NCBI RefSeq assembly: GCF_900115005.1
Contig: NZ_FOUY01000009.1
Coordinates: 1 to 64,000 of the forward strand
Reading direction: 5' to 3'
Source: Pseudonocardia ammonioxydans
GTDB taxonomy: Bacteria; Actinomycetota; Actinomycetes; Mycobacteriales; Pseudonocardiaceae
DNA length: 64,000 nt
Part shown: one piece after another, positions 52,673 through 57,114 of the stretch
Layout of the letters: the number at the start of each line of letters is the position of its first letter
How positions within the stretch are numbered: position 1 is the first letter of the stretch
Notes under the pieces: generated by a model
The model's input: only the letters and a program-made list of their open reading frames with translations
Databases searched by the model: none
What the model was told of the DNA's origin: nothing
Made by a program: the position numbers and the translations under genes

Positions 52673-54757
52673 GTGAGCTGGTTGTCCGCCGTCCCCCTGG
52701 TCCTGCTCGCTGCCACGTGGGTGACGCTGCCCGGCCTGCTCGTCGGCGTCGCCGCCGGTCTGCGCGGCATCGCCGCCTGGGGCGCCGCCCCCCTGCTGTC
52801 GGTCGGCCTGATCGCCGGGTCCGCGGTGGCCGGGAGCCTGCTCGGCGTCCCGTGGAGCGGTGCGGTGCCGGTGGCGGCCGCGTTGTTGTTCGCGCTGATG
52901 GTGGTGGGTACCCGGCGGCTGGTGCTGGGCCGCCCGCTGGTCCCCGGGCCCGCGCAGCTCCGCGACCGCGCCGGCCGGGCGTGGGCGACGCTGCGCGGCG
53001 GCGGGCCGGACCACCGCTGGACGGGCCTCGCCGCCACCGGCGGCATGCTGATCGCCTGGGTGCTGGGGTTCCGGGCCGCGATCCGGGGCATGGACCGGCC
53101 GGACGCGCTGTCCCAGACGTTCGACGCGAGCTTCCACTACAACGCGGTCGCCCGGATCCTCAGCACCGCCGACGCCTCGTCGCTGACGGTCGGCGGGCTG
53201 GTGAACTCCCCGGGCTTCTACCCCTCGGCCTGGCACGGTGTCGTCTCGCTGGTCGTACCGGTGACCCCGGGCCCCGCCGAGATCGTCGTCGCCTCGAACG
53301 TGGTCGCGCTGGTCACGACGCTGCTGGTCTGGCCGCTGTCGGTGCTGCTGCTGGTCCGCACGCTGGTCGGGCGCTCGGCCGGTGCCGCGCTGGCCGCGCC
53401 GGTGCTGTCGCTGGGCTTCATCGCGTTCCCGTGGACCCTGGTCACCTACGGGGCGCTGTGGCCGAACCTGCTCGGGGTCGCGCTGGTCCCGGCCGCGCTG
53501 GCGGCGGTCGCGCTGGCCACCCGGCCCGGGATCGGGCCCGACCCGGTCAGCCCGGCGCGCCCGGGCCCGTTCCCCCCGGGGCGGGTGGCGCGCTGGTTCC
53601 CGGTGGTCGCCGCCGTGCTCGCGCTCGGCCTCGCCCACCCGAACGCGCTGTTCGGCGCGGTGGTCGTGGCCGTCCCGCCGGTGCTGTGGGGGCTGGTCGG
53701 CGGGGTCCGGCGCGGGCTGCGTGCCGGGCGTGCGCAGGCGGTGCGGGCGATCGCCGTGGTGCCCGTCGTGGTCGCCGTGGCTGGCGCCGTCGCGTGGTTC
53801 ATGTTCGGGTCCCCGGTGCTCGACGGCATCCGCGGCTACTACTGGGAACCGCAGGTCAGCGTCGGTGCCGCCATCGGCGACGCGCTGCTGCACAGCCCGG
53901 ACGGCAACACCCCGGCCTGGTCGATCGCGGTGCTGACCGTCGCCGGCGCGGTGTGGGCACTGCGCCGGGCGCGGACGTCCTGGCTGGTCCCGGCGCACCT
54001 GCTGGTCTGCGCGCTCTACGTGGTCGGGGCCAGCACGTGGTCCTCGATCTGGACCGGGGTCTGGTACAACGACGCGCCCCGGATCGCCGCGCTCGTCCCG
54101 GTGACGGCCGCGCCGCTGGCCGCGCTCGGCCTGGTCGCACTGTGCTCGCTGGCCCGCCGGCTGGCCTGCATCGCCCGCGACGCCCTGACCCGGGCCGCAC
54201 CGGCAGTGGAGGGCTGGCCCCGGCCCCGGGCCGCCGTGCTGGTGGCGGTCGGGGTGAGCGCCGTCGTCGTCACCTCCGGCGGGCTGTACCAGCGCTCGCA
54301 CATCGACCAGCTGGCCGGGATCTACCAGACCCCGGAGGAGGTGCTGGTCGGGCCGGAGCAGGCCCAGTTCCTGCGCAGTGCCGGTGAACTGATCCCGGCC
54401 GACGCCGTCGTCGCGCAGAACCCGTGGGCCGGCACCGCGATGCTGTGGCCGCTGACCGACCGGCAGGTGCTGTTCCCGCACCTGACCGGCGTGTGGTCGC
54501 CCGAGCAACAGCTGATCGCCGAGCGCCTGAACGACGCCGCGACCGACCCGGCCGTCTGTGCCGCCGTCGCCGAGACCGGGGTCGGCTACGTGATCACCGC
54601 CCCGCCGACGTTCTGGCAGCCGGACCCGCTGGCCGAGAACTGGCCGGGCCTCGACGACCTCGACGAGGCCGAGGGCTTCGAGCTGCTCGCCGAGGAGGGC
54701 GACAACGCGCTCTGGCAGATCACCGCCTGCGACGCCGGGCGAGTCATCGGATCGTGA
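52673..54757 (+). CDS. Large GT-C-like membrane protein, first of a tandem pair
   Basis: This 694-aa protein has about twelve or more membrane helices and a C-terminal soluble part of about 130 residues. The first large loop has [14 protein letters not shown], a conserved acidic/His motif shared with the next gene. The C-terminal domain has [21 protein letters not shown], also shared. The family resembles DUF6541-type proteins as I recall them. GTG 52673 follows GGAAGGAGG. The architecture suggests a polyprenyl-phosphate-sugar-dependent glycosyltransferase; its place beside glf suggests AG or a related glycan. No proven function is known to me. Confidence 0.75.
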
Positions 54758-54903
54758 TCACCCGGGCGGGCCCGGCAGGCCTCCGGCCGGTGGCGACACC
54801 TCGACGGTAATGTCCGAGCCGCCGACCGCCCGGTGCTCCATGGCCGTTTGCGGTGACCGAGGACGGGCCGGGCATCGGCCGCCGGGAAAGGAGCCGCCTC
54901 CCG

Positions 54904-57114
54904 ATGGGCCCATCGACCTGGCTGTCCGCCGTTCCGGTCGCACTCGCCGCGGCAGTGTGGGTGATCGGACCGGGTCTGCTGGTGCTCCGCGCCGCAGGCC
55001 TGCGCGGGCTCAGCGCCTGGGGCGCGGCACCGATGGTGTCGGTGGCGCTCATCGCGACGTCGGCGGTACTGGGCACGACGCTCGGGCTCGGGTGGGGTCC
55101 TTGGGTACCGGCCGGTACCGCGGTACTCCTCGCACTCGCCGAGGTGGCCTTCCGCGGCTTCCTGGCCCGGCGCCCGGCGGGGAGCCCTCTGCACCGGGGT
55201 TGGCGATCAGCTTTGCGTGCGTGGGAACCGGGACGGCAACTCCGTGCCGCGCTCGTCCGGTGGCGCACCCCACGTGGCTTGTTCGCGCGGAGCCCCGACC
55301 CGGTAACCACCGCCCTTCCCCAGGTGTGGCGGACCTCCACGCAGCGTGAGGGGGTCGACGGCCACCGGGCGGGACTCGCCGCGTTCGCCGGTACATCCCT
55401 TGCCGCCGCGCTCGCCTGGTTGACGGTCGTGCTCGGGTTCGGCCCGGTCGACCAACTCTCGTCGACCTACGACGCCGTCTTCCACTACAACGGCGTCGCG
55501 CACATCCTCGGGACCGGCGATGCGTCGTCACTGACCCTGGGGACGCTCACCAGCCCCGGTTCCGCCAGCGCCTTCTATCCGGCCGCCTGGCACGACCTGG
55601 TCTCGCTGGTGGCGATGACCGCCGGGGCCGGCGTGCCGGTCGCGACCAACCTCACGGCCTGGTCGGTCGCCGCACTGATCTTTCCGTTGTCGTCGCTGCT
55701 GCTGACCCGGCATACGCTCGGCCGGTCGGCAGGGGCCGCGTTCGCCGCCCCGGTCATCGCGACGGCGTTCACCGGGTTCCCGTGGGCACTGATGTCATTC
55801 GGCGTGCTGTGGCCCAACCTGCTGGGTGTGGCGCTGCTGCCCGCGGCGCTGACGGTCGTGGCAGCACTGGTCGGCACGGTCAATGAGCCGGTACTGCGTC
55901 CTCCGGGTGCAGCCGTGCTCGCCGTCGCAGCACTGCCGGCGCTCGGTTTCGCCCACCCGAACGCCGTGTTCAGCCTCGCCGTACTCGGCCTGTTCCCGAT
56001 TCTGTGGGCTCTGCTCCGGCTGACCCGTCAGCGGATCCTGACCTCTCGCTTCTGGCAACCGCTGCTCGGGCTGTTCGTGACGCTCGGTGCCGTGGCCGTC
56101 GTGGTGTGGCTGATGGTCGCCTCGCCGTTGTTGGCAGGTGTCCGCGGTTTCGACTGGCCGGCTTTCACCTCGACCCCGGAAGCGGTCGTCGAGGTCTTCC
56201 TCCTGTCCACCAACAGCCGGCCCGCGCTGTGGCCGATCGGAGTGCTGGTGGTCGTCGGCGCCGTGGCCGCGCTCCGCCGGATCACGACGTCCTGGCTGGT
56301 CCCCGCCCACCTCGCGTCCGGTTTCCTCTACGTGTTGGCAGCGTCCCGGGAGGATGCCCTCACCGCCGGCCTGACCGGGGCCTGGTACAACGACTCGTAC
56401 CGGCTGGCCGCGATGCTCCCGGTGACCGGGGTTCCGCTCGCCGTGCTCGGTGTGGTCACGCTCGCCGGCTTGCTGCGCCAGGTCCTGCTGGCTCGCCCCG
56501 CTCCGGTCGGGCCCGCATTGCGCCGACGGGGGGCGTCGGCTGCGCTCGTCGTCGGATGTGTGATCGCGCTGGTCCTCGGCTACGGGGGCCTGCGGGTCGG
56601 GCTGCACTCGGTCGTACTCGCGGGGACGTACCGCGAGCCCGCGGACGTGCTGCTGGACTCCGGGCAGCGGCAGTTCCTCGAGGACGTCGCGCCACTGATC
56701 CCGGAGGACGCGGTCGTCGCCGCTGACCCGTACACCGGCAATGCGCTGTTGTACCCGCTGACAGGGCGCGAGGTGCTGTTCCCGCACCTGATCGGCGACT
56801 GGACCCCTGAGCAGACCCTGCTGGCGACCCGGATGCGGGACGCCGCCTCCGACCCGGAGGTCTGCGCGGCCGCGGCCGCCACCCGGGTCCAGTACGTACT
56901 GAGTGGCCCGGTCACCTTCTGGCCGTGGCACGGTGGCGCCGGCTGGTACCCCGGGCTGCACGATCTCGGTCCGGTGCCCGGGTTCGAGCTGGTCGCCTCC
57001 GGAGGCGGACAGGAACTCTGGCGGCTCACCGCGTGCGACCCGGCGAACCCGGCGGATCCGGACGCACAGGCCATGCCGCCCGGAGCACAGCCCGTTCCCG
57101 AGCCCACGCCCTGA
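54904..57114 (+). CDS. Large GT-C-like membrane protein, second of a tandem pair
   Basis: This 736-aa protein is a paralogue of the 52673 product: WLSAVPVALAAAVWVIGPG at the start, YDAVFHYNGVAHIL in the first loop, [20 protein letters not shown] in the middle, DPYTGNALLYPLTGREVLFPHL near the end. An extra loop of about 60 residues (110-170) is specific to this copy. ATG 54904 has AAAGGAG upstream. It appears to use more varied third-position codons than its neighbours (GTA, CGT, TCG/TCA), hinting at a different history. Confidence 0.75.
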   Translation: MGPSTWLSAVPVALAAAVWVIGPGLLVLRAAGLRGLSAWGAAPMVSVALIATSAVLGTTLGLGWGPWVPAGTAVLLALAEVAFRGFLARRPAGSPLHRGWRSALRAWEPGRQLRAALVRWRTPRGLFARSPDPVTTALPQVWRTSTQREGVDGHRAGLAAFAGTSLAAALAWLTVVLGFGPVDQLSSTYDAVFHYNGVAHILGTGDASSLTLGTLTSPGSASAFYPAAWHDLVSLVAMTAGAGVPVATNLTAWSVAALIFPLSSLLLTRHTLGRSAGAAFAAPVIATAFTGFPWALMSFGVLWPNLLGVALLPAALTVVAALVGTVNEPVLRPPGAAVLAVAALPALGFAHPNAVFSLAVLGLFPILWALLRLTRQRILTSRFWQPLLGLFVTLGAVAVVVWLMVASPLLAGVRGFDWPAFTSTPEAVVEVFLLSTNSRPALWPIGVLVVVGAVAALRRITTSWLVPAHLASGFLYVLAASREDALTAGLTGAWYNDSYRLAAMLPVTGVPLAVLGVVTLAGLLRQVLLARPAPVGPALRRRGASAALVVGCVIALVLGYGGLRVGLHSVVLAGTYREPADVLLDSGQRQFLEDVAPLIPEDAVVAADPYTGNALLYPLTGREVLFPHLIGDWTPEQTLLATRMRDAASDPEVCAAAAATRVQYVLSGPVTFWPWHGGAGWYPGLHDLGPVPGFELVASGGGQELWRLTACDPANPADPDAQAMPPGAQPVPEPTP

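Follow-up and report, generated by a model that had tools for sequence, protein, structure and literature searches.

Tandem DUF6541 proteins beside glf and aftA in Pseudonocardia ammonioxydans as predicted GT-C glycosyltransferases

The locus and its two paralogous genes

The window, a stretch of 64 000 nucleotides from Pseudonocardia ammonioxydans, carries at 52673–57114 two adjacent genes for large membrane proteins, here called DUF6541a and DUF6541b, which lie between glf and a methyltransferase gene followed by aftA (Table 1). As the initial annotation had proposed, the proteins (694 and 753 amino acids) are paralogues with two common motifs, 46% identical over 733 columns (BLASTP, E 7e-143), and the three neighbours are the genes it had named, each with Pfam matches. 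Both copies are full-length members of Pfam DUF6541 (PF20176; 602 and 597 bits against a curated cut-off of 29), listed in Pfam as a family of unknown function. A literature search found no paper with the words DUF6541 or PF20176, and neither copy matched NCBIfam. The first-loop motif DAxFHYNxVAxIL reads DAVFHYNGVAHIL in DUF6541b and has a counterpart of 13 residues in DUF6541a, while the C-terminal motif PLTxRxVLFPHL, read PLTGREVLFPHL in DUF6541b, is variable outside the Pseudonocardia group in an alignment of 66 family members.

Both open reading frames (ORFs) look like real genes, because of their third-position G+C (0.97 for DUF6541a and 0.86 for DUF6541b), their rough dN/dS ratios (Nei–Gojobori) against five orthologues (0.20–0.61 for the first copy and 0.26–0.49 for the second) and the retention of the cluster. 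The glf gene, both DUF6541 copies, the methyltransferase gene and aftA stand together in 6/6 Pseudonocardia loci compared (the window, L004, L005, L006, L086 and L087), the methyltransferase match being split in two pieces in L004. Among named relatives, the one closest to DUF6541a comes from Pseudonocardia parietis (89% over the best segment). Two further Pseudonocardia genomes (G533 and G633), members of a panel of 110 genomes of Pseudonocardiaceae, the window's family, spread over 46 genera (the family panel), gave no AftA match and no DUF6541 pair of this kind.

Table 1. Position of the DUF6541 pair, its motifs and its neighbours in the window
Feature	Position	Strand	Evidence
DUF6541a, predicted GT-C glycosyltransferase, 694 amino acids, GTG start	52673..54757	+	PF20176 E 1.3e-180, residues 15-685
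DUF6541b, paralogous predicted GT-C glycosyltransferase, 753 amino acids, GTG start	54853..57114	+	PF20176 E 5.9e-179, residues 34-727
First-loop motif DASFHYN, DUF6541a (D151 and H155, presumed active site)	53123..53143	+	Alignment; catalytic role inferred
First-loop motif DAVFHYN, DUF6541b (D207 aligns with D151 of DUF6541a)	55471..55491	+	BLASTP alignment of the copies
C-terminal-domain motif, DUF6541a, 12 residues	54449..54484	+	Pairwise alignment
C-terminal-domain motif PLTGREVLFPHL, DUF6541b	56755..56790	+	Pairwise alignment
Class I S-adenosylmethionine methyltransferase	57129..57947	+	PF13489 E 2.7e-17; 14 bases after DUF6541b
AftA arabinofuranosyltransferase	57951..59873	+	PF12250 E 1.7e-81, PF12249 E 4.2e-31; 3 bases after the methyltransferase gene
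glf, UDP-galactopyranose mutase (start approximate), divergent from the pair	51307..52473	-	PF03275 E 1.7e-82

Elsewhere in the window, a GlfT2-like protein is encoded at 38587–40506 (+; GlfT2_domain3 77 bits, Glft2_N 57 bits), besides one at 44418–46460, and there are two Emb homologues, one at 35245–38472 (PF04602, 593 bits) and a divergent one at 41431–44439 (-; PF04602, 175 bits). A membrane protein without a Pfam match at 61756–63318 (+), which follows AftA also in L004, L005, L086 and L087, looks by eye only like an AftB-type GT-C enzyme.

Fold, conserved residues and subfamilies

The resemblance to AftA-, Emb- and AftD-type enzymes suggested by the initial annotation is borne out by structure prediction, carried out for the first copy. 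The AlphaFold2 model of DUF6541a, built from 66 members, has a pLDDT of 93.3 and a pTM of 0.94. At E ≤ 0.001, Foldseek returned 14 matches, every one of them a GT-C enzyme (OST, AglB, PglB, DPY19 and AftA), and comparison with VIA-align gave a Z of 24.2 to yeast STT3 (473 residues, 6.2 Å), 18.0 to ArnT, 15.2 to AftD, 14.5 to AftA and 12.9 to EmbB. On this model, DUF6541a has a GT-C fold, and the C-terminal soluble domain anticipated for it takes the form of an alpha/beta domain that follows the helices from about residue 557. As for sequence kinship, neither copy matched the AftA or Emb Pfam families at E ≤ 0.1, single-pair BLASTP comparisons with the window's AftA gave E values of 0.04 and 0.01 for the two copies, and a sequence profile run against solved structures was uninformative (three matches, best E 0.13, no GT-C enzyme among them).

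Eight residues are invariant in 66/66 rows of the alignment, namely G21, D151, H155, Y183, P184, H188, R470 and G587 (DUF6541a numbering). They include the acidic and histidine residues of the first outer loop (D151 and H155), to which the initial annotation had drawn attention. In GT-C enzymes the catalytic acid typically lies just after the first helix; D151 has that place in the matched core of the model and would be the likely catalytic residue.

The relationships within the family were assessed with a quick tree of 66 rows (SH-aLRT support only, midpoint root). The window pair falls within a clade of 31 Pseudonocardiaceae rows (support 99), and the mycobacterial rows fall in another set (support 97/99/100), together with other Pseudonocardiaceae copies. 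Because each copy has its own orthologues in the compared Pseudonocardia (support 100 for the first-copy set and 99 for the second), the duplication is older than these species. Tandem DUF6541 genes were also seen in four of nine loci of Micrococcaceae (Pseudarthrobacter, Arthrobacter and Sinomonas); since these branch elsewhere in the tree, tandem duplication occurred more than once. In the family panel, 14 genomes were marked as having tandem copies, to be read as 13 at most: in G633 a single open frame accounts for both pieces of the match, and G616 is partly broken. Among 14 control genomes, Methanosarcina acetivorans gave the sole DUF6541 match, so that the family extends to archaea.

Kinship with Rv3779 and coupling to DUF2304

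The initial annotation had held that the pair is without counterpart in the known mycobacterial arabinogalactan (AG) locus, and this part has to be withdrawn. The AG cluster is defined as Rv3779–Rv3809c, with Rv3779 as its first gene (PMC7168186, PMC3229680). Primers for Rv3779 are printed in PMC3485146. A 16-base core of the forward primer, taken from the gene, is present in two of 297 genomes of the genus of Mycobacterium tuberculosis, both times at the start of a DUF6541 ORF (PF20176, 299 bits), and in both genomes the final nine gene-derived bases of the reverse primer lie at the stop codon of the same ORF. These two genomes are from species other than M. tuberculosis and serve in place of Rv3779 itself; likewise, the mycobacterial rows of the tree are orthologues identified via the published primers and stand there for Rv3779. 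Because the published primer ends match the ends of the DUF6541 ORF, the mycobacterial DUF6541 gene is identified, by sequence, as Rv3779, which places Rv3779 in the same family as the window pair.

The setting of the mycobacterial gene was examined in f2, a subset of 19 genomes (inferred Mycobacteriaceae) of a second panel of 246 genomes (the class panel). A DUF6541 gene is present in 11/19 and, in nine of these 11, lies on the contig and strand of aftA, upstream of the AftA_C domain, at a distance of 8–17 kb in seven genomes and 37–39 kb in two. Functionally, Rv3779 is reported to attach galactosamine (GalN) to AG, using a polyprenyl-phosphate donor that PpgS and Rv3632 make (PMC9671496, PMC3485146). 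A further passage in PMC3229680 has Rv3779 acting with PpgS and Rv3632 to put GalN on AG, and Rv3779 is annotated in this role in PMC8562490.

The donor-making partner offers a second line of evidence. DUF2304 is a helper family of polyprenyl-phosphate-sugar synthases, e.g. GacJ (PMC8327497, PMC8035078), and Rv3632 is reported in the same donor-making helper role (PMC9671496). For the counts that follow, DUF6541 was scored by scanning the best 4 or best 9 first-look candidates per genome, so copies may be missed. In the class panel, only DUF6541 matches above 100 bits were counted, giving 25 genomes (50 at E ≤ 0.001; 36 over the cut-off) and leaving out, among others, G107 of f2 (22 bits); DUF2304 was counted in 41 genomes (50 at E ≤ 0.001; 42 over the cut-off), GLF in 63 of the 65 with a match and AftA in 20 of 27, the weak ones left out including G105 and G212, both DUF6541 carriers. 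In the family panel, DUF6541 is over the cut-off in 61 of 69 genomes with a match and DUF2304 in 42 of 43. Kinship is allowed for only in the count by genus.

In the family panel, 42/42 DUF2304 genomes carry DUF6541 and 49 genomes have neither (p 7e-16). The two genes share a contig in 40/42 and lie <5 kb apart in 36/42. Counted by genus, 20/20 DUF2304 genera have DUF6541, which occurs in 29/46 genera (p 1.9e-6). For copies of the window's clade, 12/15 nearest copies are <5 kb from DUF2304, a breakdown by clade in which 20/40 same-contig cases have no tree row. Across the class panel, DUF2304 is found in 22/25 DUF6541 genomes (p 3e-17); in f2, both genes occur in 11/19 genomes and neither in eight, mostly on different contigs and >200 kb apart in two one-contig cases other than G139. 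Through this co-occurrence and linkage, DUF6541 shows the make-up of a multi-component transmembrane glycosylation system, with a synthase and its helper coupled to a GT-C enzyme; for the window pair the coupling is loose (22 kb). Rv3632 itself is presumably a DUF2304 member, which is consistent with the Corynebacterium glutamicum control genome.

The genome of the window contains no DUF6541 genes other than the two window copies and a single DUF2304 gene, at G000:C73:78993-79493 (the window being C73:1-64000). The start of the latter overlaps the stop of a glycosyltransferase family 2 (GT2) gene, and an epimerase gene and a UbiA-family gene follow. The seven PDB matches of this GT2 are dolichol-phosphate-mannose synthase (DPMS), ArnC (three) and sll0501 (three), the last of which is a GtrB. 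What separates DUF2304 from the epimerase gene differs among sister genomes: this slot measures 97 bases and holds no DUF6541 in the window's genome (L083:15494-15590), contains a window-type DUF6541 in G579 (L085:7621-9666) and, in G611, a DUF6541 from the other side of the tree that is 31% identical to the G579 copy (L088:10020-12146). The empty slot, together with the lack of any other DUF6541 in the genome, favours use of the GT2–DUF2304 donor by the window pair: the donor operon would have been kept without its own transferase, leaving the aftA-linked pair as the only DUF6541 enzymes to use it.

The same AG region contains, just after the window, a nonulosonic (pseudaminic-type) acid gene set (L083:1396-13186, i.e. 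G000:C73:65396-77186), comprising a DegT aminotransferase, a PseB-like PF02719 protein, a cytidylyltransferase, a PseG-like/GNAT fusion, NeuB and a Wzx-like flippase; the same genes are present in G579 (L085, L086). A candidate for the flippase of the proposed glycosylation system, a PF01943 protein, is encoded at L083:1396-2820, but beside these nonulosonic-acid-type genes.

Proposed role, alternatives and related systems

Taking as observed the family, the fold, the invariant residues, the kinship with Rv3779, the co-inheritance and linkage with DUF2304 and the lack of an arabinan link within the window's family (see below), we infer the donor, the acceptor, the chemistry and how the two copies share the work as follows. 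With a probability of about 0.6, the pair are GT-C transferases of the DUF6541/Rv3779 family that add a polyprenyl-phosphate sugar to a galactofuranose-containing wall polymer, most likely as a single-sugar decoration rather than as part of a new chain. Working outside the membrane, each protein would draw a single sugar off a polyprenyl-phosphate carrier and place it as a side group on the polymer, here AG; the likely catalytic residue is Asp151, in the first outer loop. The GT2–DUF2304 pair, encoded with its sugar epimerase 22 kb downstream on the window's contig, is the likely source of the donor. By analogy with the Rv3779 reports, this donor may carry N-acetylgalactosamine or GalN, and the two tandem copies may serve two acceptor positions.

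Several points weigh against this assignment. The first report on Rv3779 described it as a polyprenyl-phosphomannose synthase, and the literature conflicts (PMC3485146). By its tree placement in another well-supported subfamily, the window pair is not the orthologue of Rv3779, so donor and acceptor may differ, and identity to Rv3779-side sequences is ~31% in global alignment. The pair lies 22 kb from GT2–DUF2304, and among the 40 same-contig cases only G629 has a larger distance. DUF2304 is missing from 19/61 family-panel and 3/25 class-panel DUF6541 genomes, and 19/41 class-panel DUF2304 genomes are without DUF6541. The C. glutamicum control genome has no DUF6541 match, though it has DUF2304, and C. 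glutamicum Cgp_0658 is called an Rv3779 orthologue in PMC9671496. The literature search found no paper on galactosamine in the AG of Pseudonocardia. The class-wide association with AftA, given below, also counts here.

A wider form of this reading can be put forward tentatively. DUF6541 could supply the interchangeable transferases of a wall-decoration system general to actinobacteria. In it, one lipid-linked sugar would feed several DUF6541 enzymes marking different sites of galactofuranose-containing polymers, in arabinan makers and non-makers alike, and selection, for instance by phages, would cause transferases to be swapped or lost. The variable DUF2304–epimerase slot (window-type copy, distant copy or empty) would be its trace.

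Closest to the initial annotation, which had seen in the pair, the methyltransferase and aftA an undescribed branch of cell-wall glycan synthesis, is the view that the copies transfer arabinofuranose from decaprenyl-phosphoryl-arabinose in a new branch of AG. The clustering stands, since the operon-like spacing with aftA is kept in 6/6 compared Pseudonocardia loci; AftA, AftD, Emb and AftB are among the GT-C structural matches, and a marginal one-pair BLASTP match (23 bits, E 0.04) sets D151 of DUF6541a opposite D103 of AftA. In the class panel, moreover, DUF6541 and AftA are associated (12 both, 13 DUF6541 only, 8 AftA only and 213 neither, i.e. 12/25 versus 8/221; p 5.5e-9), an association that comes mostly from f2. 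The family panel speaks otherwise. DUF6541 shows no association there with AftA (18 both, 43 DUF6541 only, 20 AftA only, 29 neither; p 0.23). As AftA alone is too insensitive an arabinan marker (38/110 genomes), Emb was added (76/110), and the relation is then slightly negative (37 both, 24 DUF6541 only, 39 Emb only, 10 neither; p 0.04). One outcome that the initial annotation had named as refuting, wide presence in species lacking AG, is thus seen at the level of the DUF6541 family: 24/61 family-panel carriers are without an Emb match, such genomes contribute at least ten rows to the window's own clade (e.g. G572, G580, G595, G605, G628 and G638), and nine of 14 relative loci from a scan of named genomes are from Micrococcaceae, of which genome G002 gave no AftA match. 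Because the family occurs in genomes without arabinan genes and in Micrococcaceae, and is instead tightly coupled to DUF2304, a role in a branch of arabinan synthesis is unlikely.

The copies might also extend or cap galactan itself from a polyprenyl-phosphate hexose, in step with glf. Co-occurrence with glf across actinobacteria, a check that the initial annotation had put forward, was indeed found (22/25 class-panel DUF6541 genomes, p 5e-12) and is a stronger link than that with AftA, and Glf and GlfT2 matches lie beside DUF6541 in six of the nine Micrococcaceae loci, for whose wall galactofuranans the literature search gave no useful paper. This role is nevertheless improbable, given the separate GlfT-type galactan polymerases in the window and the side group reported to be added by the studied relative Rv3779 (PMC9671496). 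That the pair act as polyprenyl-phosphomannose synthases, or else as mannan enzymes, in line with the first proposal for Rv3779 from an in vitro report cited in PMC3485146, is very improbable, as Rv3779 did not rescue loss of the synthase (PMC3485146) and the GT-C fold suits the use rather than the making of a polyprenyl-phosphate sugar.

If the pair decorates a wall polymer as proposed, a Pfam family without assigned function becomes tied to a studied enzyme, Rv3779, and to a donor-making partner, so that its function can be tested in many actinomycetes, among them some that do not produce arabinan. Such decorations may matter for displayed surface sugars and for phage sensitivity, the latter because phage Cog requires genes of the related pathway to infect C. 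glutamicum (PMC9671496).

Three known systems invite comparison. AftA, AftB, AftD and EmbA/B/C share with the pair the GT-C fold, an acidic motif in the first loop and the locus, but they have no significant sequence kinship with it, DUF6541 occurs without arabinan genes and the top structural Z values are those of STT3 and ArnT. In the GacI–GacJ–GacK–GacL system of streptococci, as in the one proposed here, a GT-A enzyme makes a lipid-phosphate sugar with a DUF2304/GacJ helper and a GT-C enzyme transfers the sugar to a wall polymer (PMC8327497, PMC8035078), whereas the GT-C family and the backbone polymer of the window system are different. In the Rv3779/PpgS (Rv3631)/Rv3632 pathway, the Pfam family and the AG-cluster setting are like those of the window, and so would be the division between a GT2 with a small membrane helper that makes the donor and a GT-C enzyme that uses it; unlike Rv3779, the window pair belongs to another subfamily, is duplicated and stands directly beside glf and aftA.

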